From the NCBI GenBank assembly GCA_016937855.1, contig JAFGVU010000107.1, positions 1 to 42,260 on the forward strand: a stretch of DNA of 42,260 nucleotides. Reading direction: 5' to 3'. The stretch is from Bacteroidales bacterium. GTDB lineage: Bacteria > Bacteroidota > Bacteroidia > Bacteroidales > ML635J-15. The translations under genes were made by a program, and so were the position numbers. The notes below the pieces were generated by a model that did not search any database, was not told the DNA's origin, and worked only from the letters and a program-made list of their open reading frames with translations. Shown piece by piece: positions 13,737 to 27,395 of the stretch (positions are counted from its first letter, which is position 1; each line of letters starts with the position of its first letter).

Positions 13737-14705
13737 GTGTATTATTATATCAGTCATACATATACTATGTGGAGTGTTGCAAAAAATCAACACTTTAGCG
13801 ATGTGGTAATAATAACACCAAACAAGATTTTGTTGGAGTTTCTTAATAAAATGCAAATAAAGTATATCGAAATTGATACTCTTGTGGACTATTCATTAAA
13901 AGGATTGAAAGCACATAAGCATACTCTTGATATGATTGCCTTGCAAATCTTTTCACATGACATATACTTTGAACATATTGCGCATGATTACTGGGGGCTT
14001 TATTTAATGTACATGTTAAGAAAAACAAACAAAGTTTACTTCGACTATCCGCTTTCTGTCTGCCCAATCAGAAACACAATACTAGATACAATTTTGGAAA
14101 AGAATAGCAGGACAGTTTTTAAAGAAAACCTTATCCGTTATTTTGTTACTGGTGTCCGTTTCAATGTTTTACGCACTCCAAATAATCCGATTGTTGGAAT
14201 ACATCTGAAAAGAATATATAGGCTTTTTAAATTCTTAAAAATCGAGTATAATCATGATATCTTTATTAAAAACCGACAGCTTGTTGCAGATGTTTATAAA
14301 CTATCTATACCACAAATAGTACTAGCCGATCAGGGAGATATTCTTTATTCATATCCGGAAGCACTTACCGGGATGATATCTGAACTTGCAAAAGAATTCA
14401 GGATATTGCTTAAGCAGCATCCAAGATTATTAACGAAAGACAAGGTCTTATTGGCATCTTTAGATAAAGTCCCTACGGAAATACCTATGGAACTACTGAT
14501 TTCGGAAGAGACAGTAATAGTTGGGATTGCTTCAGCTTTTTTGAGGGATTTTAATTCGATATCCCTGATAAGATTGGTTGATTTTTATAACGAAGAAAAA
14601 AGAGAATATTACTATAATTTCATAAAAACCGATAATGTGCAGATTCCGGAAACGCCAGAAGAGTTTATTAAATTGATCAGGGATAGGTTGTTAGCGAATA
14701 GTTAA
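13737..14705 (+). CDS. GT52/sialyltransferase-like protein, candidate nonulosonate transferase
   Basis: A 322-residue protein without an obvious common family name. Its pattern matches the GT52 and polysialyltransferase-type GT-B enzymes. It has a short N-terminal strand YYYISHTYTMWS, a mid-protein strand IVLADQG (residues 194-200), the HP motif in LLKQHPRL (His228-Pro229), and a serine-containing VVGIASAF strand (Ser266) preceded by IPMELLI. In bacterial sialyltransferases the HP motif contacts CMP and a following Ser motif binds its phosphate. The start is GTG at 13737; an ATG at 13767 would remove the first strand, so I keep GTG. It pairs with the flippase gene 20 bp away, and the large nonulosonate operon faces this pair. 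The family call is by eye and tentative, but it would supply the transferase the locus needs. Confidence 0.5.
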   Translation: MYYYISHTYTMWSVAKNQHFSDVVIITPNKILLEFLNKMQIKYIEIDTLVDYSLKGLKAHKHTLDMIALQIFSHDIYFEHIAHDYWGLYLMYMLRKTNKVYFDYPLSVCPIRNTILDTILEKNSRTVFKENLIRYFVTGVRFNVLRTPNNPIVGIHLKRIYRLFKFLKIEYNHDIFIKNRQLVADVYKLSIPQIVLADQGDILYSYPEALTGMISELAKEFRILLKQHPRLLTKDKVLLASLDKVPTEIPMELLISEETVIVGIASAFLRDFNSISLIRLVDFYNEEKREYYYNFIKTDNVQIPETPEEFIKLIRDRLLANS

Positions 14706-14733
14706 TATAAATATAATAATCTGGGTGGTAGAA

Positions 14734-16188
14734 ATGGAAAAATCAATACGACAGCATGCAGCATCAGGGGTATTATGGGGGGCAGTTGGTCAGTTAGGAA
14801 CACAAACATTTAATTTTATCCTTTCGATAATTCTTGCTAGATTGCTTTTTCCTGAAGAATTCGGGTTGCTAGCAATGATAAGTATCTTTATAGCTATTGC
14901 CGAAGTGTTTATAAATTCAGGTTTGGGCGCAGCTATCATTCGAAAGAAAGATGCTACACCACAGGACTGTTCAACAGTATTTTATTTTAATATAGCAGTC
15001 AGTGCACTTTTTTATGTTATATTATTTTTCTCTGCTCCATTAGTATCTGCTTTTTTCAATGAACCTATACTTGTTAATTTAACACGATTAATCTCAATTG
15101 TTTTTATTTTAAACGCGTTTGGCGTTGTTCAGAATGCCCTGTTAGCAAAAGAACTTAACTTCAAAAAAATTAAGCTTATTGAACTCTCCAGTCTGGCTAT
15201 TTCCGTATTGCCGACAATTTATCTGGCTTATCATGGATATGGGGTTTATAGTCTAGTTGCTCAAAGATTGGTGCAATCTTTCTTTAAAAGCATGTTTTTA
15301 TGGGTGTTCTCAAAATGGAAACCTAGAGATGGATTTAGTGTTAAGTCGTTTAAGAGCCTATTCGCGTTTGGGTCAAAGATTTTACTGACCGGAATTTTCA
15401 ATATTATTTTTACCAATATTGATTCAATTTTAATAGGAAAAATTTTTCTTGCCCAGCAATTGGGTTTCTATTCAAAGGCAAAAGCAACAAAAGATCTGCC
15501 TGTTAATACTTTGTCAAATATACTCACTTTGCCTGTATATTCAATAATGGCAAAAATACATGATGATCACGAGGCTTTAAGAAGATTGAATATTAAGTTT
15601 TACAAAGTATTTTCTTTTGTGTTTTTTCCGATTGTTTTTGGGTTGATTGCGGTGGCAGAACCACTTATAATTACAATGTACACTGAAAAATGGGCTTTTT
15701 CGATTCCGATGCTAAGGATACTTGCGTTTACGGCTATCCCGTTTTTATTAGGATATATACAGGATCAAACGATTATTGCAAAGGGCTTGTCTGGATTATA
15801 CATGAAACTTTCAATAATTAACAGGGTTATCAATGTTGTAACAATTCCGATCGGGATTTTTTGGGGCTTGTTTCCGTTTTTATGGAGTATTACCATTGTC
15901 AGCCTGATAGGATTATTTATTAGCAATCATTATACTGGAAGGCTTATAAACGTTAAATTTTTTGATTATGTAAAAATAATGTTTCCCTATTTTGGGATGT
16001 CATTATTGATGTTTGGAGTTGTTTCACTTTGGGAACTTATTCCTTTTGTAAAGCAATACATTAAGTTATTTGTACAGTCAGGTACAGGACTTGGTGTCTA
16101 TCTGGGGATTGCATATTTATTCAAAGTGGAAGAACTGGAATATGTTAAAACAATCATTCTTGGACGTTTAAAATTCGAAAAAAAATAA
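14734..16188 (+). CDS. wzx: Polysaccharide flippase (Wzx/WzxC type, MOP superfamily)
   Basis: A 484-residue integral membrane protein with about twelve to fourteen helices, expected to move lipid-linked oligosaccharide across the inner membrane. The N-terminus is typical (SIRQHAASGVLWGAVGQ), followed by LARLLFPEEFGLLAMISIF and the loop GLGAAIIRKKDATPQD; these are WzxC/polysaccharide-synthesis signatures. The frame opens with GTG at 14725, but ATG at 14734 is better placed after a GGTGG purine-rich stretch and gives the usual start. It follows the GT52-like gene on the same transcript. It converges with the nonulosonate operon at a stem-loop just after its stop. Confidence 0.9.
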   Translation: MEKSIRQHAASGVLWGAVGQLGTQTFNFILSIILARLLFPEEFGLLAMISIFIAIAEVFINSGLGAAIIRKKDATPQDCSTVFYFNIAVSALFYVILFFSAPLVSAFFNEPILVNLTRLISIVFILNAFGVVQNALLAKELNFKKIKLIELSSLAISVLPTIYLAYHGYGVYSLVAQRLVQSFFKSMFLWVFSKWKPRDGFSVKSFKSLFAFGSKILLTGIFNIIFTNIDSILIGKIFLAQQLGFYSKAKATKDLPVNTLSNILTLPVYSIMAKIHDDHEALRRLNIKFYKVFSFVFFPIVFGLIAVAEPLIITMYTEKWAFSIPMLRILAFTAIPFLLGYIQDQTIIAKGLSGLYMKLSIINRVINVVTIPIGIFWGLFPFLWSITIVSLIGLFISNHYTGRLINVKFFDYVKIMFPYFGMSLLMFGVVSLWELIPFVKQYIKLFVQSGTGLGVYLGIAYLFKVEELEYVKTIILGRLKFEKK

Positions 16189-16199
16189 TGCTCTAGAAT

Positions 16200-16214
16200 G
16201 TAGGTTACACCTAC
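16200..16214. terminator. Candidate terminator between convergent flippase and SGNH genes
   Basis: A perfect 6-bp stem (GTAGGT / ACCTAC, 3-nt loop) is followed on the plus strand by TTTATTATTT. It overlaps the stop of the convergent SGNH gene. It is short but well placed to end the wzx transcript. Confidence 0.35.
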
Positions 16215-16915
16215 TTTATTATTTGCTCCAGTTCGCTTACCAATGATTCTAATACAATTATGTTTCCTCTAGGGTTAGGATGATAACCGTCATCATAGAT
16301 GTCTTCACCTTTATCAGCATTTAAAGGGTTTACTATCTTGACAAAATCATATTTTTGTGAAACTTCACTAATTATGTCGTTGTATTTGATAACATTTGTA
16401 ATAATTGACGGGTTTTTAAAAATCATTTCCTGACCAGGAATTGGAATTGCAATGTAGATTACTTTAAGCACTTCATTTTTCTGACACCTGTTGAAGTACG
16501 CAATAAGGTTTGACCTGAATTTTTCTTTGGAAACGTAAACATTTTCAGTATCTCTTTTATTATTTCGTTTTAAGTAGTCAATGTATTTGTTAACAACTTT
16601 TTTTGGCATCCTGCGCACGATTTTCCATACTAGCGAATTTTCCTTTATAAGTCTGGGTGCGCAATCAACTATTCCAAGTTGTAGGATAACAACCTGTGGG
16701 TTATAATATTCTAAACAATCTGATCCGTATGGGAATTTGTTGTTATTGACATCTGCACCCATGGTAATCAATCCGTCTGTTGTCAAACTGCGTTGAAATA
16801 CAGAAATAAAATCATAATTTTTGTATTTTTCCTTTAATTTGTAGAACCAGGTATCCTCATATAAATTTGTATGCCCCGGTCTGGACAATGAATCTCCTAT
16901 ACAAAGTATTTTCAT
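16211..16915 (-). CDS. SGNH/GDSL-family hydrolase
   Basis: A 234-residue SGNH hydrolase. It starts with KILCIGDSLSRPGHTN, giving the catalytic Ser in GDSL near residue 9. It ends with DDGYHPNPRGN, giving the Asp and His of the triad. Block III reads LQLGIVDCAPR, so the usual Asn of the GxND motif is replaced. There is no signal peptide, so it likely acts in the cytoplasm or on lipid-linked intermediates. It is the last gene of the nonulosonate operon, and its ATG touches the stop of the acyltransferase gene before it. A role in O-deacylation, or as an acyltransferase on the sugar, is inferred from its neighbours. Confidence 0.8.
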   Translation of the reverse strand: MKILCIGDSLSRPGHTNLYEDTWFYKLKEKYKNYDFISVFQRSLTTDGLITMGADVNNNKFPYGSDCLEYYNPQVVILQLGIVDCAPRLIKENSLVWKIVRRMPKKVVNKYIDYLKRNNKRDTENVYVSKEKFRSNLIAYFNRCQKNEVLKVIYIAIPIPGQEMIFKNPSIITNVIKYNDIISEVSQKYDFVKIVNPLNADKGEDIYDDGYHPNPRGNIIVLESLVSELEQIIK

Positions 16916-17464
16916 TTAAATTTCTTTTATTAATTTGGCAGGGTTTCCTACAAATACACAAGCATCCGGAACATCTTTAGTAACAATACTTCCAGCTCCA
17001 ACTACAGCATTCTGTCCTATTGTAACACCAGGTAAAATTATTGCATTTGCTCCAATCCATGCTCCGGTTCTTATAATTACATTTTTCCCTACATAATGTC
17101 CTTGCTTTATAATAGGAATATTCAAATCATCAAAGCGGTGATTGTTTACATAAATATGCACACCAGAACCAATTAATACATCATCTTCAATTACTATTTG
17201 AGCACCATCCTTTCTTGTGTCTGCAAACAGCATTGATGTAGGTCTTATCACCACATTTGCTCCTAGTGAGATATTTGAGCAAGCGATAGCATATGCTCCC
17301 GGCCTAAATTCAGCTCCCTCTCCAAAATGCTTAAATTTTTTAACACACAATTTTTTCCCGGCTTTTTTAAAATATAGCTTAAATTGTGTTGTTAAGCAAT
17401 CAGGTCCAAGTCTATCGGCATTATTCCAAAATTTAATTCTCGAAAACAACTCAAAAATTACCAT
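16916..17464 (-). CDS. Hexapeptide-repeat O-acetyltransferase
   Basis: A 182-residue left-handed beta-helix acetyltransferase of the maltose/virginiamycin acetyltransferase type. Hexapeptide turns are visible (IVIEDDVLIGSGVHI, IIRTGAWIGANAIILPGVTI, AVVGAGSIVTKDV), as is the catalytic-type His in VNNHRFDD. The C-terminal GNPAKLIKEI is typical. It would use acetyl-CoA to acetylate a sugar hydroxyl. It overlaps the SDR gene by 7 bp and is followed directly by the SGNH hydrolase gene, so the pair may set acylation of the nonulosonic sugar. The sugar position cannot be read from sequence. Confidence 0.85.
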   Translation of the reverse strand: MVIFELFSRIKFWNNADRLGPDCLTTQFKLYFKKAGKKLCVKKFKHFGEGAEFRPGAYAIACSNISLGANVVIRPTSMLFADTRKDGAQIVIEDDVLIGSGVHIYVNNHRFDDLNIPIIKQGHYVGKNVIIRTGAWIGANAIILPGVTIGQNAVVGAGSIVTKDVPDACVFVGNPAKLIKEI

Positions 17465-18276
17465 ATCGAAAATCCTCCATCAATTATTAAATTATGACCA
17501 GTCACATAAGAAGAAGCATCTGATGCAAGATAAATCAGTGCTCCATTTATTTCGTCAGGATTTGCTTTTCTCCCCAATGGAACTTTAGCACTATATTTTT
17601 TTAGAAAAGTCTCATTTTCACCTGGGTAATATATTCCGCCGGGAGTAATCGTGTTAACTCTTACATTATATTTCCCATAATAAGCAGCTAAATATCTGGT
17701 AAAATTATTTAACCCTCCTTTTGCTGCATTATATACTCCATGTGAATATATTTGTTTGATGTTAGGAGAATCCTTAACATAAATCTCATGAAGATTTGAA
17801 CCTTCATATATACTTTGATCATTGCCTAAAATGCCATAAATTGAAGATATATTTATTATTGAACCAGATCTTTTCTCTCTCATAATAGGGATAAAAGTCT
17901 GAATTGCCAAAAATGCTGCCGTAAGATTGCCTTTTAGACCAATTTCCCAACCCTCTAAAGAGACTTCTTCAAAAGGCAAATAAAAGTCATTACCCTTTGA
18001 AGTAGTGGCATTTATTAATACATCAATTTTATTATGTGTATTTACTATTGTATGATATACTTTTACTAAATCATCTTTATTTGTAGAATCTGCTTTTATT
18101 AAATGAAACTTTTCAGAATATGTTTCTTTTAAGCTTTTTATTAATTCATCTTCTTCTACTCTTATATCACAACAATACAATATTGCTCCATTCTCCAACA
18201 AACATTTACAAAAATGTTTACCCAAGATTCCGTTTCCGCCAAATAATACAACTATTTTTCCTTTTAAATTAAACAT
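17458..18276 (-). CDS. Short-chain dehydrogenase/reductase (PtmA-like)
   Basis: A 272-residue classical SDR. The NAD(P)-binding motif reads VVLFGGNGILGKHF (about residues 9-22). The catalytic Ser lies in INISSIYG and the Tyr/Lys pair in YNAAKGGLNNF. The C-terminus has the usual YVTGHNLIIDGGF. It overlaps the Gfo/Idh/MocA gene by 13 bp and the hexapeptide acyltransferase gene by 7 bp. SDRs of this kind, called PtmA in Campylobacter, are found in nonulosonate and flagellin-glycosylation loci. Here it probably oxidises or reduces a ring or side-chain hydroxyl of a nonulosonate precursor, possibly in sequence with the neighbouring oxidoreductase. The exact reaction is unknown. Confidence 0.85.
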   Translation of the reverse strand: MFNLKGKIVVLFGGNGILGKHFCKCLLENGAILYCCDIRVEEDELIKSLKETYSEKFHLIKADSTNKDDLVKVYHTIVNTHNKIDVLINATTSKGNDFYLPFEEVSLEGWEIGLKGNLTAAFLAIQTFIPIMREKRSGSIINISSIYGILGNDQSIYEGSNLHEIYVKDSPNIKQIYSHGVYNAAKGGLNNFTRYLAAYYGKYNVRVNTITPGGIYYPGENETFLKKYSAKVPLGRKANPDEINGALIYLASDASSYVTGHNLIIDGGFSIW

Positions 18277-19244
18277 ATTGAAGTATTTTTTAAGTTAGAC
18301 TCTTCACACTTTTCAATTATTTTCATCACATTAATCCCCTGATTAAAACTGCAGGCATAACTTGTTGCTCCTAACCCTACAAATTCCGCCATTTGAAATT
18401 TATATTGTAAATTATAATCCTCCGTATTGCTATAAATTACTTCATTCTTTTTGTTTTCATAATCAATAAAACTAACCTCTTTCTTAACAAAATCATATTG
18501 TAATAGCCCTTTTTCAAAATATATTGATCCCTTACGCACAAGAACTGGGTCTAAAAAATTTATATGAACATTAACCAACTTACAAAACTCCGCTTCACAT
18601 TGTATAGATGCAACATCATCAACATCAATTTCCAAATCGCTTAATTTAGATACTTTTGCAAATACTGATTTAATTTCTCCAAAGAAATACTGCATTAAAT
18701 CAATTTCATGACTCAGTGTTCTAATTGCTCCTCCTCCTAAATCTTTTCTCGAATAATACGCTTTTCTATAGTCCTCATAAGGATGCCAATCCGGCAAATA
18801 CTGTCCTACATGCAGTTGCGCTGTTATTATTCTACCATATTTTTGGGAAGAAATACAAGATTTCACAAATTGAAAAACTCCGTGAAACCTTAAATTATAA
18901 CCAACAATCCCCTCAATATTGGGCTCATTTAATAAATCGGAAATATCCACAATATTCTCAGCAACAGGTTTTTCTACGAAGAATCTGATTTTTTTCTCAA
19001 TTAACTTCGCAACATAGTATTTGTGTAAACTTGTTGGGTTACTAATAACCACATGTGTAGGTTTCCAAGCAAATGCATCTTCCTCATCACTAAACATTTT
19101 GATCTTATCAATTAGAATCTTTTCTAACTGCTTTGATCCTTTATTTGTCCGTAATGCTGCTACATTTTCCAAACCAAGCTCAAGCAATGCTTTTGCATGC
19201 CTTTGACCAATAGAGCCAAGTCCAATTATCAGTACTTTTATCAT
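18264..19244 (-). CDS. Gfo/Idh/MocA-family sugar oxidoreductase
   Basis: A 326-residue NAD(P)-dependent oxidoreductase. The Rossmann start is VLIIGLGSIGQRHAKAL, and the family's FVEKPVAENI motif with the catalytic Lys follows near residue 91. The C-terminal beta-sheet domain contains GGGAIRTLSHEIDLMQYFFG, with the conserved His. Members oxidise or reduce sugars and sugar nucleotides. It overlaps the cytidylyltransferase gene by 4 bp and the SDR gene by 13 bp, so the three are surely co-translated. A Gfo/Idh/MocA plus SDR pair beside a NeuB-like synthase suggests epimerisation or redox tailoring of the nine-carbon sugar or its six-carbon precursor. Confidence 0.85.
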   Translation of the reverse strand: MIKVLIIGLGSIGQRHAKALLELGLENVAALRTNKGSKQLEKILIDKIKMFSDEEDAFAWKPTHVVISNPTSLHKYYVAKLIEKKIRFFVEKPVAENIVDISDLLNEPNIEGIVGYNLRFHGVFQFVKSCISSQKYGRIITAQLHVGQYLPDWHPYEDYRKAYYSRKDLGGGAIRTLSHEIDLMQYFFGEIKSVFAKVSKLSDLEIDVDDVASIQCEAEFCKLVNVHINFLDPVLVRKGSIYFEKGLLQYDFVKKEVSFIDYENKKNEVIYSNTEDYNLQYKFQMAEFVGLGATSYACSFNQGINVMKIIEKCEESNLKNTSICLI

Positions 19245-19993
19245 TTAAGTTTTATTTGATTTTGATCGTCCCATCTAATTTGATAAGATTGTTTTAAGTC
19301 TTTGTTAATGCTAACTATTTCAGGATTTAAATCAAGAAAAGCTATTATTTCCTTGATTCCAGTTTTATAAGTATTAAGGCCAAAATGATTATATATTTTT
19401 GAGAAAAAATCAAAATCAGCTTGATAATCTAATGTTAATCTGTATTCTTTTCTAATTAATTCCTCTGGTATTTCAATATCCAAAACATTAAACAAACCCG
19501 TATCTGTAAAGTATCTGCCCCAAACTTCTGTCTCGATGCCCTCTTTTATTTCACAAACTTTGCGCATTGCATCAATTTTTAACCCATAAGTGAAAAAACC
19601 ATGCGGCAAATCCAATGTCCTTATAAAATCTGCATTAGTCTTCTTATATGTATTAATTATTTCATCAATGTATTCCGTGGAAACCAAGGGGCAATCTGCT
19701 GTTATATTTAAAGCGTAGTCCAAATTAAAACAAACTGATGCATCATAAAGACGTTGAATTACATCATCTTCATGTCCTCGAAAAACTTTTATGTTTTCCT
19801 CTTTTGCAATTACTTCCAAAATATCATCTTGTGGATTCACAGAAGTGCAAAGAATTATTTCGTCAACTGATTTTGCAGTCTTAATGCGATCAATCATCCA
19901 TCGGATTATTTGTCTGTTGTTAATTTCAAGTGTCAGTTTTTTAGGTAGTCTTGTGGACTTCATACGTCCTGTAATCAAATATCCTGTTTTCAT
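19241..19993 (-). CDS. SpsF/NeuA-like cytidylyltransferase
   Basis: A 250-residue nucleotidyltransferase of the acylneuraminate cytidylyltransferase/SpsF group, expected to activate a nonulosonic acid as its CMP derivative. The signature ITGRMKSTRLPKKL (about residues 7-20) is the CTP-binding loop, and ALNITADCPLVSTEYID carries the metal-binding Asp. It is closer to the Bacillus SpsF style than to NeuA. It is the only cytidylyltransferase seen in the window, so it may have to serve products of both NeuB-like enzymes. It lies immediately after the second NeuB-like gene and overlaps the next gene by 4 bp. Confidence 0.8.
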   Translation of the reverse strand: MKTGYLITGRMKSTRLPKKLTLEINNRQIIRWMIDRIKTAKSVDEIILCTSVNPQDDILEVIAKEENIKVFRGHEDDVIQRLYDASVCFNLDYALNITADCPLVSTEYIDEIINTYKKTNADFIRTLDLPHGFFTYGLKIDAMRKVCEIKEGIETEVWGRYFTDTGLFNVLDIEIPEELIRKEYRLTLDYQADFDFFSKIYNHFGLNTYKTGIKEIIAFLDLNPEIVSINKDLKQSYQIRWDDQNQIKLK

Positions 19994-19994
19994 A

Positions 19995-20990
19995 TTACTC
20001 CAAATCAGATTTTTTAATACAATGTCCAGTCTTTAAATTTTTAACAAACTTTTTACCATGCAGACCAACTATGTCTATTTGAGACAAATCTGCTTTTTGA
20101 CCCGTTCTCTTAAAAGAATACAACTCTTCAGAAAGTTCATCACCAACGATTACATCTTTAATCAGAACACCCGCTTTTTTATTAGGCCCAAAAACCGAAT
20201 ATGACTTTTCGCCTGAATTAAGCGTTATTGCGCCATTACCGACAGATTCGACAAGTACTTCTATTTTATCGGTTAATTTATTAAATTGATCAATGCTTAC
20301 TGCAGCCTGCCAGTCAGTTCGGTTCTCGCCTGGCCGAATACTAACATGCTTTTCTACATATTTTACTCCTAACGCAGCCCCGAACAATGTAATTAAAATA
20401 TTATTTTCATTATCCCATGCTGTGTGGTCAGCATATCCATGTTCAAAATTAGGGAATAGATGCATTATTCTTCTTACTTTTTCAAAATTGATATCCTCAT
20501 ATTTTGTAGGGTAATTCTGAAATCCATGCATTAAAACAATATTTGATGTGCCAATTAAAGCAATCGCATTCTCAATTTCATACAAATCTGTTCCACCAAC
20601 ACCCAAAACAACTTTTGTGAGATTGTTTATTTTAGACTTTAAATGACGAAGTAGTTTATAATCGTTTAAACAAACTGAATGAATTTCAACTATCTCTGGA
20701 TTGAATTTCATTCCATATTCAATAGCCTTGATATCATTAAAAAGCAACATCAGTTTTTTATTGAATTTCGTTGGAATTGACAAAATTTCGTCCCATTGCT
20801 TTTCTGTAAACATCCTATCTTTTGCCCAACTATATGCAGGATGATCAGTGTGCATATACTCATCTAGATTAACTGTTAAATGGAATTTTATATAATCAAC
20901 TTTGGTCTGTTGAGCTATTTCAGTTACCAACTGTTTAAAAAACTCGAAATCACCATCATGGTGCCACGCCGTTTCTGCTATTAATCTCAT
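19995..20990 (-). CDS. Second, divergent NeuB-family synthase (with SAF domain)
   Basis: A 331-residue member of the NeuB family, which condenses phosphoenolpyruvate with a six-carbon amino sugar. The TIM-barrel start is IAETAWHHDGDFEFF instead of the usual IAEAGVNHNG. VDYIKFHL keeps the substrate-binding Lys. The metal-binding histidines are retained in YADHTAWD and VEKHVS. The usual HC-x-x-x-YP segment reads LMHGFQNYPT, and the loop after EKH is RPGENRTDWQAA rather than a PGPDH type. A C-terminal SAF/antifreeze-like domain (about 270-331) has the family Arg in FKRTGQKAD. The divergence suggests a different acceptor sugar from the canonical NeuB encoded 2.6 kb upstream. It sits between the YhcH and cytidylyltransferase genes with gaps of 1-2 bp. 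Confidence 0.8.
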   Translation of the reverse strand: MRLIAETAWHHDGDFEFFKQLVTEIAQQTKVDYIKFHLTVNLDEYMHTDHPAYSWAKDRMFTEKQWDEILSIPTKFNKKLMLLFNDIKAIEYGMKFNPEIVEIHSVCLNDYKLLRHLKSKINNLTKVVLGVGGTDLYEIENAIALIGTSNIVLMHGFQNYPTKYEDINFEKVRRIMHLFPNFEHGYADHTAWDNENNILITLFGAALGVKYVEKHVSIRPGENRTDWQAAVSIDQFNKLTDKIEVLVESVGNGAITLNSGEKSYSVFGPNKKAGVLIKDVIVGDELSEELYSFKRTGQKADLSQIDIVGLHGKKFVKNLKTGHCIKKSDLE

Positions 20991-20992
20991 TC

Positions 20993-21448
20993 TTAATCAA
21001 TTTTAATTTTAACGACAATCTTTTTTATCTGCTCCGAGTTTGTGAGAGCAAAACCTGGCATATGCAAATCATTCGGGAAAAACATTGCACACATTCCTCG
21101 CGAAAGACAAAGCTTATTACTTTCCTGTCCGACAAACAAAGAGTAATCACTTATTTCATCATACTCCTTATTCACTATTTGATTTACAAAAACTTCAAAG
21201 TTTATAATTTCATTTCCACTTATCATGTATTGTAAATCAATATACTTGCGATGAGACTCCAGAATATTATTCTGTACCGTCTTTGTTTCATACTCATTTA
21301 CGAGAAAAAACAACTTGTCTCCATCAATTTCATGTTTTCCTTTTGGATATTTTGAAAAATCAGTTGTTTGAATAAATTCGAATGCTTGATTTATTCTTTG
21401 TCCAAGATTTTTATAGATACTAATATTTGTAACGTGGTCAAAAATCAT
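20993..21448 (-). CDS. YhcH/YjgK/YiaL (EbgC-like) family protein
   Basis: A 151-residue single-domain cupin-like protein of the DUF386 family (YhcH, YiaL, EbgC). Visible signatures are KHEIDGDKLFFLVNEY, SHRKYIDLQYMISG with conserved metal-ligand type residues, and a C-terminal MFFPNDLHMPGF. In E. coli yhcH belongs to the sialic-acid catabolic nan operon and has been linked to handling sugar anomers. Here it sits inside a biosynthetic operon, 2 bp from the second NeuB-like gene and from ptmE. A supporting role such as anomer or epimer selection of the sugar substrate is an inference; no reaction is established. Confidence 0.85.
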   Translation of the reverse strand: MIFDHVTNISIYKNLGQRINQAFEFIQTTDFSKYPKGKHEIDGDKLFFLVNEYETKTVQNNILESHRKYIDLQYMISGNEIINFEVFVNQIVNKEYDEISDYSLFVGQESNKLCLSRGMCAMFFPNDLHMPGFALTNSEQIKKIVVKIKID

Positions 21449-21450
21449 TT

Positions 21451-22506
21451 TTAATCAAATTTAATAAAGTTAATATCATTGTTTGCTTTTAAATAATCCT
21501 CATGTTTTCCAATGTCAAGCCAATATCCCTCCAAAGGGTAAGACACAACTTTTTTTCCTATTTTTATCAATTCCTCCATAAGATCAGTTGTGTTATAATG
21601 TTTCTCTATTGGAATCAGTTTTAACAATTCTCTTTTCATCAAATAGATGCCACCATTTGAATAATATGTATATGTTGGCTTTTCTTTAAAATTTACTACA
21701 TGTCCGTTACTTGTTTCAAGAACAGCATAAGGAATATCAACTCTATATGGTATTGTTGCTACCGAAAAATCAGCATCCTGTTTAATAAAATCAAGAAAGA
21801 AATGTTCGTAATCAATATTTGTCAATAAATCACTATTGGTAACCAGAATGTAATCATGAATAAAGTTTTTTATTTTAGAAACGGACCCGATTGTTCCCAA
21901 TGGCTCAGTTTCGTAAATATACTGAATAATTGTGTTTTTTTCTTCTCCGTCTCCAAAATACGCCTCTATTTGTTCACCTAAGTACTTAACAGTAATCCAA
22001 AAATCATCAATCCCGAATAAGCATAAACGATTTAAGTTATGCTCAAGAATGGGTTTATCTCCGACTTTGAGCAATGGTTTGGGCACCAAGTCTGTTAAAG
22101 GCCTTAATCGCTCACCTCGTCCACCTGCCATAATCACAGCATCAACAGGCAAATAGGATTTTATTTTACGAAAGTTAATTACATTTACAATTCGGTCATC
22201 TTTATCAAGTATAGGAATAATACGAAAATTATTTTCTCTGAACTCAACGACTTTTTTAATATCCCTTTCCCCTTTTCTGATAAATTTAGGATTCTGCTGG
22301 ATGATATTTTCCACCAAATCATCAACTCCAAAACCTTTTAAAAGACCTCTCCTAACATCACCATCAGTTAGAGATCCAATCAGTTTTTCATTTTCGTCAA
22401 CAATAAATATAATTGCATCTTTTGCAAGAGAATCAAGCACTTTCAATGCATCCTTTATCTTGTGTCCTTTTTCAAGAAGGTGTTTTTTGTAGTTATCTAT
22501 TTGCAT
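21451..22506 (-). CDS. ptmE: PtmE-like sugar-1-phosphate nucleotidyltransferase with CBS domains
   Basis: A 351-residue fusion. Residues 1-120 form a CBS pair (DAIIFIVDENEKLIGSLTD and IIPILDKDDRIVNVI), and residues 125-350 form a nucleotidyltransferase with the signature AVIMAGGRGERLRPLTDLVP and YSNGGIYLMKRELL. This arrangement matches Campylobacter PtmE, a glucosamine-1-phosphate guanylyltransferase that begins the GDP-linked route to legionaminic acid. Its presence with LegB, LegC, LegH, LegG and LegI homologues suggests a GDP- rather than UDP-sugar route here. The CBS pair may bind an adenine nucleotide and regulate activity. It overlaps the NeuC gene by 14 bp. Nucleotide specificity is inferred. 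Confidence 0.85.
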   Translation of the reverse strand: MQIDNYKKHLLEKGHKIKDALKVLDSLAKDAIIFIVDENEKLIGSLTDGDVRRGLLKGFGVDDLVENIIQQNPKFIRKGERDIKKVVEFRENNFRIIPILDKDDRIVNVINFRKIKSYLPVDAVIMAGGRGERLRPLTDLVPKPLLKVGDKPILEHNLNRLCLFGIDDFWITVKYLGEQIEAYFGDGEEKNTIIQYIYETEPLGTIGSVSKIKNFIHDYILVTNSDLLTNIDYEHFFLDFIKQDADFSVATIPYRVDIPYAVLETSNGHVVNFKEKPTYTYYSNGGIYLMKRELLKLIPIEKHYNTTDLMEELIKIGKKVVSYPLEGYWLDIGKHEDYLKANNDINFIKFD

Positions 22507-23599
22507 AGTTTTTTAAATATTTAATCATTTCCTCTGCTGCTTTTCCATTGCCATATATCTTTGTTTCTTTAGATGAAGAATAACTAGCTGCTTTTGAAAT
22601 TGCATTGATAATCTCATCCTTTTTGATTTTGCTATTAAAAATATTTGGTGTAATAATCCTTCCTTTTTGCCTGTTCCCTAAGTTTACAACAGGCTTATCA
22701 AAACCTGCGGCTTCGATAAAACCACTCGAGGTATTACCAAGTAGCATTGAACAATGCTTAATACAAGTTAAATAACCAAGAGATCCAAAAGATTCGACTC
22801 CAATGACATTTGCATTTTTCTCAATAAACTTGTTTAGTTCCGACCTAATTTGCAAACCCATTGTATCTGAATTTGGCATCGTAATTATTATCTGATAGGC
22901 CTTGAGCTCAGCAAGAGCACAAATTATTTCATTTATGAAAAATGTATTTTTTTCGAATTCAACTGTTTCGGGATGGAAAGTAAAAAGAATACTAGGAATA
23001 CTTAAGTCAATACCAAATTTTTCCTTAAATTGTACTAATGTAAAAAGCTGTGTTAGTTTTATGTTGTCAATGCTAAGCGCTCCAGTATTGTAAACATTTT
23101 TGTCGTTGCCGATAATTTCAATTACACGTTTTCTATATTCTTCTGCAGCAGTAAAATGAATGTCAGACATTAAAGTTATTGAATGTCTGAACGAATTATC
23201 AATTGCGCCTAATGTAGTTTCCCCGCCATGTATATGAGCAATTTTTAGGTTAAAGGGAATTGTAGAACTTACTGCTGCAAACATTTCATATCGGTCACCC
23301 AAAGCGATAACCAAATCAAAATTATGTTTGTACCACACTTTAGAAAACTCTTCTATTGTTTTGCCTATAGAAAATGAAATTTCTGCTGGACTATCTCCAG
23401 TTGGCATAGTGTCAATTTTCTCTGCAATGTTAAAACCATCTGCATAAATATTTTCAATAGTATTCCCAAATTTTAAGGAAAGATGAGTACCGAATACTAG
23501 CAAATTAAGGTCGAAAAAGCTATCTTTTTCTAACAATTCCAATAACGGACGATAAATACCGTAATCAGCTCTCGAACTTGTTAAAACTGCAACTTTCAT
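22493..23599 (-). CDS. neuC: NeuC/LegG-type hydrolysing NDP-sugar 2-epimerase
   Basis: A 368-residue hydrolysing 2-epimerase with the UDP-GlcNAc 2-epimerase fold. The start VAVLTSSRADYGIYRPLL is diagnostic, followed by LVIALGDRYEMFAAV, IAHIHGGETTLGAID and GNTSSGFIEAAGFDKPVVNLG. In the legionaminic pathway the LegG member removes the nucleotide from the 2,4-diacetamido sugar and inverts C2 to give the free manno-configured substrate for the synthase. It overlaps the synthase gene by 4 bp and ptmE by 14 bp. Sialic-acid NeuC acting on UDP-GlcNAc is the alternative, but the LegB/LegC neighbours favour LegG. Confidence 0.9.
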   Translation of the reverse strand: MKVAVLTSSRADYGIYRPLLELLEKDSFFDLNLLVFGTHLSLKFGNTIENIYADGFNIAEKIDTMPTGDSPAEISFSIGKTIEEFSKVWYKHNFDLVIALGDRYEMFAAVSSTIPFNLKIAHIHGGETTLGAIDNSFRHSITLMSDIHFTAAEEYRKRVIEIIGNDKNVYNTGALSIDNIKLTQLFTLVQFKEKFGIDLSIPSILFTFHPETVEFEKNTFFINEIICALAELKAYQIIITMPNSDTMGLQIRSELNKFIEKNANVIGVESFGSLGYLTCIKHCSMLLGNTSSGFIEAAGFDKPVVNLGNRQKGRIITPNIFNSKIKKDEIINAISKAASYSSSKETKIYGNGKAAEEMIKYLKNYANR

Positions 23600-24621
23600 T
23601 TAAAATCCTCCGATTTAAGCATTTGTTCTTCCTCGACATCACTAATGAGAGTTTTTCCAATGTAGAAATCGATATCCATTGGTGAAACCCCGTTTCCAGG
23701 TCTTTTGGCGATTAAATCATCTTTCTTTATAACATTTCCCTTAGACAATGCATTTGAATAATGAAGACTTTTACGTGCAATATTTATATTCTTTTTTTCA
23801 GATGGGCTTGGGGTTTTTAATCCACTCCCACTAATTGCTAATTCAATATTTCTAATAGATTCAACCATTGACTTTAATTCATCAGGTTCTAAAGATGCTT
23901 TATGATCTGGTCCTGGTAAATTACGATCTAAAGTAAAGTGCTTTTCTATGACAGATGCTCCTAATGCGACAGCTGCAATTGCAACTTCAACACCTTGTGT
24001 GTGATCAGAGTAACCCACTTTTACCCCAAATTCATTTTTAATATGTTGCATTGCCAACAAATTGACATCACACATAGGAGTTGGATATTCTGTATTGCAA
24101 TGTAGCAGGGTAATCTTTTCCTTTGGCAAGCCTTCTGAATAAATGACTTCGAGTGCATTTCGAATTTCAGTAATGTCAGCCATTCCGGTTGAAATAATCA
24201 CTTCTTTAGCTTTTTTCGCAATATGTTGAAGATATGGTTTATTTGTAATTTCTCCAGAGGGTATCTTAAAAAAGTTAATCCCTAGCTTATCAAGAAAATC
24301 AATACTCTCAATATCAAAACCTGTGGACAAAAACAAAATTCCTCTTTCTTCAGCATACTCTTTTAATTTGTAATACCATTCTTCAGGCATTTCAAGTTTC
24401 TTGAGCATCGAATATTGAGAATCGTCATCATCAACAGTATTTAATTGTTGATATTTAGCTTTTTTTGCTGACTTTGACACTAATCTGGAAGCATTAAATG
24501 TTTGAAACTTTACATAGTCTGCTCCTGCATCTGCAGCACTGCCAATAAGCTTTTTTGCAAGTTCAAAACTTCCGTTATGATTTACTCCAGCTTCAGCTAT
24601 TACTATCGTTTTATTAACCAT
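23596..24621 (-). CDS. neuB: Nonulosonic acid synthase NeuB/LegI
   Basis: A 341-residue phosphoenolpyruvate-dependent synthase. It shows all the canonical NeuB landmarks: IAEAGVNHNGSFELA at the start, DYVKFQTF, LHCNTEYPTP, VGYSDHTQG and IEKHFTLDRNLPGPDHKAS. The SAF domain near the end carries KRPGNGVSP, with the Arg that reaches the neighbouring active site. By neighbourhood its acceptor is probably the 2,4-diacetamido-trideoxymannose made by the LegB-LegG enzymes, giving a legionaminic-type acid. ATG at 24621 overlaps the NeuD gene by 8 bp. Compare the divergent second copy at 19995-20990. Confidence 0.93.
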   Translation of the reverse strand: MVNKTIVIAEAGVNHNGSFELAKKLIGSAADAGADYVKFQTFNASRLVSKSAKKAKYQQLNTVDDDDSQYSMLKKLEMPEEWYYKLKEYAEERGILFLSTGFDIESIDFLDKLGINFFKIPSGEITNKPYLQHIAKKAKEVIISTGMADITEIRNALEVIYSEGLPKEKITLLHCNTEYPTPMCDVNLLAMQHIKNEFGVKVGYSDHTQGVEVAIAAVALGASVIEKHFTLDRNLPGPDHKASLEPDELKSMVESIRNIELAISGSGLKTPSPSEKKNINIARKSLHYSNALSKGNVIKKDDLIAKRPGNGVSPMDIDFYIGKTLISDVEEEQMLKSEDFK

Positions 24622-25246
24622 TCTGCGTTAGTTTTTTTGCTGGATTGCCAGCCCATGTTTCATTATCGGGGATGTCCCCTAAAACGACGGCACCAGCTCC
24701 AACAATAACATTATTACCAATATTAACACCTTGTTTTATTACAGAGTTTGCACCAATGAAAGTCTTTGGACCAATAAAAACATTACCGGCTAAAACTGCA
24801 CCAGGTGCAATATGAGAGAAATCTCCAATATTACATTCATGCTCTACAATTGCTCCAGTATTAATGATTACTCCATTACCAATTTTTGCAAAGGCATTTA
24901 TACAAGCCCCTGTAGAGATTAAACTTCCACTATTTATTTCCGCGTAAGGTGATACATTTGCCTTTGGACTAATTGCAGTAATAAGTTCAATATTATTACT
25001 GTTTAGAAACTTGATAACTTCGCTACGTATTGCGTTATCACCAATCGACACAAAACATGAAGTTCCTTTTTTAAGCAGCTCTTTTAAATTAGTTTCTCTC
25101 TCATTTCCAAGATACTTTAACTTAAACGGATTGTAATTTGCTTCATTTTTTTCGAAATAACCTATTATAGAATAATTTAGTTGCAAAAAAATATCTGCAA
25201 CAACATATGCATGTCCCGAGTAACCAATCAAAGCAACATTTTTCAT
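24614..25246 (-). CDS. neuD: NeuD/PglD-like sugar O- or N-acetyltransferase (LegH candidate)
   Basis: A 210-residue hexapeptide acyltransferase of the NeuD/PglD family. The N-terminal Rossmann-like domain starts VALIGYSGHAYVVADIFLQ. The left-handed beta-helix follows, with IVEHECNIGDFSHIAPGAVL (the catalytic-type His), VIKQGVNIGNNVIVGAGAVV and the end WAGNPAKKL. In this position, between LegC and the synthase, it is best read as LegH, which N-acetylates the 4-amino sugar nucleotide. Sialic acid O-acetylation is the alternative for NeuD proteins. It overlaps legC by 4 bp and neuB by 8 bp. Confidence 0.88.
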   Translation of the reverse strand: MKNVALIGYSGHAYVVADIFLQLNYSIIGYFEKNEANYNPFKLKYLGNERETNLKELLKKGTSCFVSIGDNAIRSEVIKFLNSNNIELITAISPKANVSPYAEINSGSLISTGACINAFAKIGNGVIINTGAIVEHECNIGDFSHIAPGAVLAGNVFIGPKTFIGANSVIKQGVNIGNNVIVGAGAVVLGDIPDNETWAGNPAKKLTQNG

Positions 25247-26394
25247 AAAACAACACTACTAGGAATATTTACAACTCTTTCTTCGAACCAAACTGAATTT
25301 GTCATGCTATCTGTTTGACAATTCTCGAACATTGGTAACTTGTGCATTAATTTCCAAATCGGTCTTGTCATAACACCATTCGAATTCGAAAATTCTAAAA
25401 ATTGGTCTCTTTCTATTTTATCTGCCATAACAATTACATTTAGCCAATAATTTGACCTTGCATTTTTAGGTTCGGAAAAGAAACTAATACCCTCTTTATT
25501 ATTAAAAAATTCTTTATATTGATTTGCTATTTGCCGCTTATTTTCAAGAATAAGATCAATCTTTTCCAGCTGTGCGCAGCCAATTGCAGCGTTAATATTT
25601 GGCATTCGATAATTATATCCTATCTCATCGTGTACAAATTCCCATTGGTGAGGGACTTTTGCTTGTGTTGTGAGATGTTTTGCTTTGGCGGCTAACGCTA
25701 AATCATTAAATAATAGCATTCCACCTCCGCCAGTGGTTATAGTTTTATTACCATTAAAACTTAAAATACCAACTTTGCTAAATGTTCCTGTATGCTTTCC
25801 TTTGTAAAAGCTCCCGAGGGACTCTGCTGCATCCTCAATCAGCTCAATCTTATATTTTTCGCAAACTTCAACTAATTCTGCGATTAAAACCGGATGTCCA
25901 AAAGTATGCATTGGTACACATGCTTTAATTCTACGGCCAGTGTTTATATTAAAACAACTCCCTTTTTTTATTTCTGCATTTTTACTTAACCAGCTTTCAG
26001 TTGCTTTTGGCGAAAGTCCCATTGTTTCTTTGTCAACATCCAAAAAAACCGGAATTGCTCCTGTATAAGAAATTGCATTTGCAGTTGCAATAAAAGTAAG
26101 AGATTGTGTAATTACTTCGTCGTTTCGCTCAACACCAGATAAAAGCAGAGCCAAATGTAGGGCATTAGTTCCGTTAACACAAGCAACTGCTTTTTGGGAG
26201 CCTGTATATTCAGCAATCATTTCTTCAAATCTGTCAACATATTTACCTACACTTGAAACAAAGGTACTGTCAATACAGTCATTCAAATATTTTTTCTCAT
26301 TACCACAAAAAACAGGAGCATGTAATGGGATAAAGTAATCACTGCTAGAATTATATAAGTCTCTAATTTTATTTATTATTAATTTGTAATCCAT
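25243..26394 (-). CDS. legC: LegC-type PLP-dependent sugar aminotransferase
   Basis: A 383-residue DegT/DnrJ/EryC1-family aminotransferase, which transfers an amino group to the C4 keto sugar nucleotide. The PLP lysine is in SFNGNKTITTGGGGML, the binding Asp in IELIEDAAESLGS, and FVSSVGKYVDRFEE plus ACVNGTNALHLALLLSG are typical of the LegC subgroup. The protein is complete, ending VNIPSSVVL. It follows legB by 17 bp and overlaps neuD by 4 bp. The subgroup assignment rests on these segments and on the operon order, which matches legionaminic acid clusters. Confidence 0.9.
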   Translation of the reverse strand: MDYKLIINKIRDLYNSSSDYFIPLHAPVFCGNEKKYLNDCIDSTFVSSVGKYVDRFEEMIAEYTGSQKAVACVNGTNALHLALLLSGVERNDEVITQSLTFIATANAISYTGAIPVFLDVDKETMGLSPKATESWLSKNAEIKKGSCFNINTGRRIKACVPMHTFGHPVLIAELVEVCEKYKIELIEDAAESLGSFYKGKHTGTFSKVGILSFNGNKTITTGGGGMLLFNDLALAAKAKHLTTQAKVPHQWEFVHDEIGYNYRMPNINAAIGCAQLEKIDLILENKRQIANQYKEFFNNKEGISFFSEPKNARSNYWLNVIVMADKIERDQFLEFSNSNGVMTRPIWKLMHKLPMFENCQTDSMTNSVWFEERVVNIPSSVVL

Positions 26395-26411: not shown

Positions 26412-27395
26412 TTAAATATTGTAAATATCTGTTTTATATTTTTCCAAATTTGCTCTATCTAAAAACCATTTTATTGTATCTTCGAGTCCTGTTTTAATGT
26501 CGTAAATAGGTTTCCAGTCTGTAGTTTTCTTTATTAACTTATCATCCCCAAATAATCTAAAGACTTCTGACTTTACTGGCCTTATTCTTTGATTATCCGT
26601 AATGAACTTCACATCACTATTCATTATTTCTTTTATCAAATTTAGTGTATCATGCATTGATATTTCTGAATTTGAGGCAATGTTTATTTCTTTTCCAATT
26701 GTTTGATTACTAACCGCAATTGCCAGAAATCCTTCTACGGTATCTTTTACATAATTAAAATCACGCGTTGGAGTTAAGTCACCAAGTTTAATTTCTTTTA
26801 TTCCGGCAGCAATCTGACTAATAATTGTAGGGATTATCGCTCTTGCCGATTGGCGTGGACCATAAGTATTAAACGGACGGACTATTGTAACCGGCAATTC
26901 AAATGCGTTATAAAAGCTCATTGCCATGGCATCGGCGCCAATTTTAGATGCTGAATATGGAGACTGTGGCTGTTTTGGGTGATTTTCGTCAATTGGTACA
27001 TATTGTGCGGTTCCATAAACTTCGCTTGTTGAAGTAACAAGGATTCTCTTTACACCATTTTCTTTTGCTGCCTGACAGATGTTTAATGTTCCTTTAACAT
27101 TTGTATCAATATAAGAATCGGGTGCAACATAAGAATATGGTATTGCTATGAGTGCTGCCAGATGAAAAACAATATCAATATCTTTAGTAATATACTTACA
27201 AAAGTGTGGATCTCTAACATCTCCGCTAACAACTTCTAAGTTAACATGATTAATCCCTTCGAGCCAGCCCCAGTGGTTAAACGAATTATAATATGACAAA
27301 GCTCTTACTTTATAACCTTTTTCTAATAGGAGCTCTGTAAGATGTGAGCCAATAAAACCATCTGCACCTGTTACTAAACAATTTTTACTTGCCAT
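26412..27395 (-). CDS. legB: LegB-type NAD-dependent 4,6-dehydratase
   Basis: A 327-residue extended SDR. The nucleotide-binding motif is CLVTGADGFIGSHLTELL, and the catalytic Thr/Ser and Tyr-Lys are in VTSTSEVYGTAQ and YSASKIGADAMA. The segment YNSFNHWGWLE after the first helix is characteristic of the LegB group. It would convert an NDP-GlcNAc (GDP form, given PtmE) into the 6-deoxy-4-keto sugar, the first committed step. It is the first gene of the 13-gene minus-strand operon, with a TAAGTTTG box 19 nt upstream of the ATG. Confidence 0.92.
   Translation of the reverse strand: MASKNCLVTGADGFIGSHLTELLLEKGYKVRALSYYNSFNHWGWLEGINHVNLEVVSGDVRDPHFCKYITKDIDIVFHLAALIAIPYSYVAPDSYIDTNVKGTLNICQAAKENGVKRILVTSTSEVYGTAQYVPIDENHPKQPQSPYSASKIGADAMAMSFYNAFELPVTIVRPFNTYGPRQSARAIIPTIISQIAAGIKEIKLGDLTPTRDFNYVKDTVEGFLAIAVSNQTIGKEINIASNSEISMHDTLNLIKEIMNSDVKFITDNQRIRPVKSEVFRLFGDDKLIKKTTDWKPIYDIKTGLEDTIKWFLDRANLEKYKTDIYNI

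Follow-up and report, generated by a model that had tools for sequence, protein, structure and literature searches.

The 42,260-nucleotide contig JAFGVU010000107.1 of a Bacteroidales bacterium (GCA_016937855.1), analysed over its whole length and hereafter called the window, raises the question of why an operon for a legionaminic acid (Leg)-type sugar encodes two NeuB-like proteins and no recognisable NeuA. The source genome comprises 4.44 Mb in 264 contigs, and the window is one entire contig. Thirteen genes lie on the minus strand from 27395 to 16211, and with neighbours +17 to -14 bases apart they appear to form a single operon, in the order LegB, LegC, NeuD/LegH, NeuB1/LegI, NeuC/LegG, PtmE, YhcH, NeuB2, SpsF, Gfo, SDR, hexapeptide acyltransferase and SGNH hydrolase, with NeuB1 as the canonical synthase and NeuB2 as the divergent one. 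A preliminary description of this DNA had taken the last seven genes as a second nonulosonate module downstream of a complete legionaminic set. Its seven minus-strand open reading frames were found where it had placed them and belonged to the families that it had named (Pfam, with the SGNH/GDSL hydrolase just below threshold). The upstream set, however, proved incomplete: LegB, LegC, NeuD/LegH, NeuB1/LegI, NeuC/LegG and PtmE were present, NeuA/LegF was not found in the operon, and SpsF was the only cytidylyltransferase found there.

The reading favoured here, with modest confidence, is that the operon makes one legionaminic-type sugar, that NeuB2 alters the open-chain NeuB1 product without using phosphoenolpyruvate (PEP), and that SpsF then makes the CMP-sugar, NeuB2, SpsF and often YhcH together replacing NeuA. 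We infer the action of NeuB2 on the NeuB1 product; the computed features are a separate clade, a retained fold and metal site, lost PEP-facing residues, exchange with NeuA, pairing with NeuB1 and SpsF, and a link to YhcH.

A separate clade of NeuB-fold proteins

NeuB2 possessed the TIM barrel and SAF domain of the NeuB/LegI fold and scored far below the family cut-offs, with 93.6 bits against TIGR03569 (NeuB/LegI; cut-off 399.65) and 70.4 bits against TIGR03586 (PseI; cut-off 340.25). Among the 50 matches listed, NeuB/PseI/SpsE, DAHP and KDO8P synthases alone aligned with it (VIA-align). Its distribution was surveyed in bacterial and archaeal species genomes with alignment A2, built from five NeuB2 proteins. 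The best 80 of the 82 stretches encoding a relative formed the locus set, in which 68 loci were classed as core and 12 as outer. Of the core loci, 39 belonged to Bacteroidota, 8 to Pseudomonadota and 6 to archaea; the others came from nine more phyla or candidate phyla of bacteria and from one bacterium of unassigned position.

The 85 rows with Gly at position 182 and Phe or Tyr at 183 formed one clade (FastTree support 0.998), within which the 72 core rows were nested as a clade of their own (1.0), and in an IQ-TREE analysis of 71 rows a single branch split core from canonical sequences (100/99). Bacillus subtilis SpsE grouped with the canonical NeuB rows, apart from the NeuB2 clade (Shimodaira-Hasegawa-like approximate likelihood ratio test, SH-aLRT, 99), and scored 315 bits against the canonical profile versus 153 bits against the NeuB2 profile. 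NeuB2 forms a deep clade of its own that retains both the complete NeuB fold and the metal site. The divergence claimed in the preliminary description was thereby borne out, as the tree that it had proposed placed the gene at 19995-20990 outside both canonical NeuB and SpsE. A close NeuB2 was absent from 60 relatives of the genome (same genus, family or order), the best match outside the window being 29 percent identical (E 9.7e-19). Plasmid records gave 25 NeuB2 matches, all below 60 percent and the 20 listed below 26 percent. PHROGs held no family for NeuB2, YhcH or SpsF, and the viral structure library was likewise uninformative.

The canonical positions H215, H236, E234 and D247 were conserved in 74/74 NeuB2-labelled rows, His215 and His236 being the residues that we take to bind the metal in NeuB. 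As stated in the preliminary description, NeuB2 retained the histidines of the metal site (H189, H215) and the arginine of the SAF domain (R295), and its HCxxxYP and PGPDH regions did differ from the canonical ones. At other sites, the canonical residue was replaced: T110 by L/M in 70/72 NeuB2-labelled rows (T/S in 62/64 canonical rows), K129 by E/D in 71/73 (K in 64/64), S154 by G in 69/74 (S in 63/64), and S213 by A in 70/74 (S in 64/64), with a new histidine at position 131. The alignment register of these sites was confirmed with hhalign. Positions 154 and 213 presumably face PEP or lie near it. Positions 110 and 129 are named as PEP-facing in an excerpt of PMC7371886. NeuB2 has thus lost the PEP-facing residues of NeuB/LegI (Thr110 and Lys129, also Ser154 and Ser213). 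Compared with Neisseria meningitidis NeuB/SiaC (PDB 2wqp, 1xuu), it showed 22 percent identity, with changes at positions 110, 129, 131, 154, 182, 184 and 213, and its stretch from K53 to T110 was about 13 residues shorter than in the canonical rows. Fifteen positions showed a conservation of at least 90 percent in the core versus at most 10 percent in canonical rows. A decayed pseudogene was rejected in view of the intact frame, the invariant metal ligands and the newly conserved positions.

The lost PEP-facing residues would also suit a NeuB2 without enzymatic activity that serves SpsF or NeuB1 as a regulatory or binding subunit, and NeuB2 adjoins SpsF and is fused to it in some outer lineages. 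A mere scaffold would hardly need invariant metal ligands and 15 core-specific conserved positions, and in one Bacteroidota locus (L187) an SpsF-like gene occurs without NeuB2, so we regard this role as quite improbable.

Exchange of NeuB2 and SpsF with NeuA

NeuB2, canonical NeuB, SpsF, NeuA and YhcH were called with profiles built from the fetched loci, and PtmE, NeuC, LegC, LegB, Gfo, SDR, NeuD and SGNH with the window's single sequences. The Bacteroidota sample was picked on LegC rather than NeuB2: 40 of 395 genomes, the window's own included, exceeded the LegC cut-off, and all 40 loci were scanned. Canonical NeuB was found in 34 of them; among the six without it in the stretch, one had a NeuA-like match. 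Twenty-six of the 34 carried NeuA without NeuB2 or SpsF, five (window included) carried NeuB2 and SpsF without NeuA, and none carried both NeuA and NeuB2 (Fisher test 2e-4, uncorrected for kinship). The remaining three (L187, L172, L193) had neither NeuA nor NeuB2; L172 and L193 lacked NeuA, NeuB2 and SpsF alike in the stretch, L172 having a KdsB-like match and L193 being a 4-kb contig. The next scanned-for gene after PtmE was NeuA in 20/26 NeuA clusters, and NeuB2 followed PtmE or PtmE-YhcH in 4/5 NeuB2 clusters.

A Thermodesulfobacteriota sample centred on a NeuB2 genome yielded 14 of 297 genomes above the LegC cut-off. Six loci had canonical NeuB and NeuA without NeuB2, two had NeuB2 and SpsF without NeuA (one of them with its canonical NeuB outside the stretch), three had canonical NeuB with neither, three had none of these genes, and none had both. 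When 87 canonical NeuB proteins were placed in a quick tree (58 encoded in NeuB2 clusters, 26 in NeuA clusters, and 3 others), the NeuB2 label required 16 changes, at least 10 of them forced by supported branches, against a shuffled mean of 24.3; without the three others, the two states needed 15 changes. The window's NeuB1 was sister to that of L185, which comes from a NeuA cluster (SH-aLRT 99). Given these repeated label changes, Leg pathways of one kind are repeatedly completed by either set, NeuA or NeuB2 with SpsF.

The CMP-legionaminic acid pathway of Campylobacter jejuni was reportedly set out by Schoenhofen in 2009; for the comparison with it, the LegB and LegC functions are what we take to be those of their families. 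As far as the consulted portions of PMC4481668 extend (Table 5), the Plesiomonas Leg cluster, set there against Vibrio fischeri and E. coli, comprises a GlmU-like acetyltransferase, PtmA, LegF, PtmF (326 aa), PtmE, LegH, LegI and LegG. On this partial basis, the window has in common with the C. jejuni and Plesiomonas sets the LegB, LegC, LegH, LegI, LegG and PtmE functions as well as PtmF, PtmA and GlmU-like genes, and it differs in having SpsF, a second NeuB-like protein and YhcH in the place of LegF/NeuA. The window's Gfo, SDR and hexapeptide genes are placed like PtmF, PtmA and the GlmU-like gene of that cluster, which speaks against a separate second module. Gfo and SDR homologues were moreover optional in Leg clusters and occurred in NeuA clusters without NeuB2 (L165, L169, L170, L175, L181, L184), and for that reason a separate second-sugar operon was rejected as the principal explanation. 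NeuB2 with SpsF in NeuA's place and the lost PEP-facing residues disfavour it too. Between the two options left by the preliminary description, a second sugar or a tailoring of the first, the tailoring option therefore fits better.

SpsF has been met in other pathways. In excerpts of PMC7439481, the B. subtilis spore sps genes likewise include SpsF as a putative cytidylyltransferase of a Leg pathway, with a single NeuB named (SpsE, of canonical type), unlike the NeuB1 and NeuB2 of the window. For Vibrio sp. B9-25K2, a passage of PMC7371886 suggests that an SpsF-like domain may replace a missing NeuA; that cluster is for pseudaminic acid (Pse), its SpsF-like domain is fused to an aldo-keto reductase, and the passage mentions no second NeuB. 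Leptospira has two nonulosonic acid (NulO) synthases and two CMP-NulO synthetases according to a part of PMC3438082, a set that differs from that of the window. The stand-in of SpsF for NeuA has already been suggested in print and the optional Ptm genes are known; what these precedents do not account for is NeuB2 with the adjoining YhcH. In the titles, abstract openings and passages of the open PMC literature that were covered, no description of the NeuB2-SpsF pair or of a second NeuB with YhcH was seen; the author of the preliminary description likewise knew of no described pathway with this exact set.

Probable activation by SpsF and a proposed step on the open-chain sugar

For a census of activators, 30 of the 68 core loci were chosen, mostly on long contigs or from isolates, and 28 genomes were searched, several of them incomplete bins. 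Matches above 50 bits were counted, and full-profile matches above 150 bits were set aside as KdsB-like (not individually checked). Nineteen of the 28 genomes had exactly two NeuB-family proteins, NeuB1 and NeuB2, and one non-KdsB-like cytidylyltransferase, SpsF; the remaining nine had an additional cytidylyltransferase. The operon and this census suggest that SpsF activates a nonulosonate with cytidine triphosphate (CTP), and since it is the sole candidate in the 19 genomes, Leg activation must run through SpsF there. Canonical NeuB was present in 52/54 loci with 7 kb on both sides, the two exceptions having it at another place in the genome, and each of the 42 genomes searched (28 core, 14 outer) encoded another NeuB-family protein in addition to NeuB2 (best match 160 to 345 bits). 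SpsF lay within 200 bp of NeuB2 in 77/82 loci with both (a few of them duplicates: L033/L091, L035/L110, L073/L074), on which ground a chance neighbourhood was rejected.

NeuB2 might instead be a second PEP-dependent synthase for a different ulosonic acid, with SpsF activating both products or the second only. If SpsF served the second sugar only, the NeuB1 product would be left without an activator of its own in the 19 genomes. Four PEP-facing or nearby residues of canonical NeuB are lost in the core, NeuB2 with SpsF exchanges with NeuA, and no set of genes that would provide another six-carbon precursor was seen accompanying NeuB2 in the locus map, all of which count against such a synthase.

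YhcH bears on the same choice. NeuB-type enzymes handle open-chain sugars, and an opener next to NeuB2 would therefore fit the uptake of a finished sugar rather than the building of one. In the Bacteroidota LegC sample, YhcH occurred in 3/5 NeuB2 clusters versus 0/26 NeuA clusters (p 0.002), and in the locus set it was found in 31/68 core versus 0/12 outer loci (p 0.0025). It lay within 250 bp of NeuB2, SpsF or PtmE in 25/34 cases. The E. coli YhcH anomerase, a DUF386 protein acting on a nonulosonic acid, serves catabolism by handing the open form of N-acetylneuraminic acid (Neu5Ac) to the sialic acid aldolase NanA, according to excerpts of PMC8141875, whereas the window's YhcH stands in a biosynthetic operon. 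By analogy with that hand-over, and with its metal site retained, NeuB2 could be a nonulosonate lyase (aldolase) that clears wrong or surplus sugar. In the place of the activating enzyme a lyase would undo the pathway, and both the NeuA exchange and the cytidylyltransferase fusion of outer relatives indicate activation, which makes this role highly improbable.

Under the favoured reading of one sugar altered by NeuB2, LegB, LegC, LegH, LegG and NeuB1 would yield free Leg, as judged from their families, and YhcH would open its ring. NeuB2 would hold open-chain Leg at its metal within the former sugar site, the place of PEP being taken by acidic and histidine residues, and would alter it, most likely by isomerisation; SpsF would then activate the NeuB2 product with CTP. 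NeuB2 has probably abandoned the NeuB reaction in favour of a new one on the sugar already made. Our speculative and rather unlikely guess at the change is epimerisation at C4 via a reversible aldol cleavage, made because the C4 bond is the one that NeuB chemistry makes. C4 is the atom created by that chemistry, and 4-epi-Leg is found in nature.

Several results weigh against this reading. K53 was retained in 72/72 core-labelled rows. Among 13 outer relatives, K129 was kept in 12 and S154 in 8; PEP use may therefore persist in the wider family. The NeuA exclusion was incomplete, with NeuA-like matches in 3/68 core loci (L056, L068, L086; 236-315 bits) and in 6/12 outer loci, four of the latter weak (70-91 bits). 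Fusions of NeuB2-like proteins with SpsF were seen in the outer group only (L030, L036, L119, L122), which mostly keeps K129. Distance matrices of 65 loci did not discriminate, the partial r of NeuB2 being 0.43 with SpsF and 0.41 with NeuB1. YhcH was present in only 31 of the 68 core loci and in 0/14 Thermodesulfobacteriota loci, NeuB2 clusters included. The SpsF-like gene of L187, together with a B. subtilis Leg pathway that has SpsF and for which excerpts of PMC7439481 name no second NeuB, indicates that SpsF does not always depend on NeuB2.

The NeuB fold, the complete metal site, the retained K53, the K129 of the outer relatives and the NeuA-like genes of three core loci favour a second synthase instead. 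So does the count of further cytidylyltransferases besides KdsB-like and SpsF proteins, 12/14 in outer versus 9/28 in core genomes (p 0.0025; the outer ones were hand-sorted with a looser KdsB-like bound, and the model used missed the SpsF of L117), as two sugars would need. With K129 mostly kept and these 12 of 14 genomes, a true second synthase is plausible in the outer group. The confinement of fusions to the outer group and the NeuA of three core loci slightly lowered our confidence in one sugar altered by NeuB2 and slightly raised that in a second synthase, which we still consider unlikely for the window's protein. Two outer relatives were observed in small clusters with no canonical NeuB on the stretch (L117:2125-8154 and L126:4041-10642), together with SpsF, a PtmF-like oxidoreductase, an aminotransferase (class III, Pfam-tested for L126 alone) and kinase-like and HAD-like genes (both by eye).

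Operon genes, neighbouring loci and implications

The genes of the operon are listed in Table 1. The first gene is presumably LegB, as judged from its position and its homologues in other Leg clusters. YhcH scored below the N-acetylneuraminate anomerase model NF040884 (120.7 bits, cut-off 160). Since the SDR reaches only 112.5 of the 350 bits set for PtmA, the names PtmA-like and PtmF-like refer to position. The SGNH hydrolase was found in 3/5 NeuB2 clusters (window, L033, L035) versus 0/26 NeuA clusters (p 0.002; single-sequence profile).

Table 1. Genes of the 13-gene block in the window, in order of transcription
Gene	Position	Strand	Basis
LegB-like NAD-dependent dehydratase, first gene	26412..27395	-	position and homologues in other Leg clusters
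LegC aminotransferase	25243..26394	-	TIGR04181, 568.8 bits, above cut-off 420
NeuD/LegH acetyltransferase	24614..25246	-	TIGR03570, 221.8 bits, above cut-off 160.8
NeuB1/LegI canonical nonulosonate synthase	23596..24621	-	TIGR03569, 477.6 bits, above cut-off 399.65
NeuC/LegG hydrolysing 2-epimerase	22493..23599	-	388.5 bits, above cut-off 235.9
PtmE-like CBS-nucleotidyltransferase	21451..22506	-	slot after which NeuA or NeuB2 with SpsF usually comes
YhcH/DUF386, predicted, probable nonulosonate anomerase	20993..21448	-	Pfam DUF386; TIGR00022, 131.2 bits, above cut-off 45.5
NeuB2, 331 aa, NeuB-fold protein of separate clade	19995..20990	-	Pfam NeuB, 89.6 bits
SpsF-like cytidylyltransferase, stand-in for NeuA/LegF	19241..19993	-	PF02348 (CTP_transf_3), 69.2 bits, above cut-off 22.6
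Gfo/Idh/MocA oxidoreductase, 326 aa, PtmF-like by length and position	18264..19244	-	Pfam GFO_IDH_MocA
SDR, PtmA-like by position only	17458..18276	-	Pfam SDR; NF050062, 112.5 bits, below cut-off 350
Hexapeptide acyltransferase, in place of the GlmU-like gene of the published Leg cluster	16916..17464	-	Pfam hexapeptide
SGNH/GDSL-like hydrolase, operon end	16211..16915	-	just below both Pfam cut-offs (30.0/32.9 and 22.6/23.6 bits)

Elsewhere in the window, a 322 aa protein without Pfam match (13737-14705, plus strand) lies beside a flippase-like gene (14725-16188) and is, by position only, a candidate nonulosonate transferase. A PKD-repeat protein with a secretion-tail domain is encoded at 27493-33162 (plus strand); the second half of its gene and the bases just past it have a G+C of 0.41-0.43, versus about 0.33 around. 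The source genome has two further NeuB genes (L041, G000:C135; L042, G000:C204), one with a small phosphatase-like gene and a cytidylyltransferase gene, the other with NeuA fused to a phosphatase-like domain (phosphatase by eye).

In other loci, a place next to NeuB1 that often belongs to NeuC was occupied by a protein of some 290 aa (L035:5009-5839, L095:6222-7115, L163:6815-7690 and 17 more); the two examples tested had no Pfam match. Among these 20 scanned loci, 19 were NeuB2 loci without NeuC, and L163, a NeuA cluster, also lacked NeuC. The profile of 18 sequences matched the glycosyltransferase GalT1 (5hea, E 6e-16), and the protein may replace the hydrolysing 2-epimerase. One NeuB2 Leg cluster contained HisF-, HisH- and WbpG-like genes (L032:4548-7276, by eye), which suggests an acetamidino group on its sugar.

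Gene content is a common basis for predicting nonulosonic acids, NeuB and NeuA serving as the markers. Genomes with NeuB2 and SpsF and without NeuA, five of the 34 in the LegC-based Bacteroidota sample, would wrongly be taken either for producers of two sugars or for genomes that cannot activate their sugar. It is our tentative suggestion, less likely than not to hold, that in this widespread, unnamed clade of NeuB-fold enzymes from bacteria and archaea a PEP-dependent synthase has become an isomerase of open-chain nonulosonic acids (possibly a C4 epimerase) that works without PEP, receives its substrate from YhcH and has SpsF as its dedicated CMP-synthetase. We know of no explanation for the origin of nonulosonate epimers; if true, this suggestion would provide a biosynthetic route to them and a new reaction type for the NeuB fold. 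Should the NeuB2 reaction be new, it would supply a missing step toward isomeric sugars and would clearly exemplify the conversion of a PEP synthase to other chemistry.

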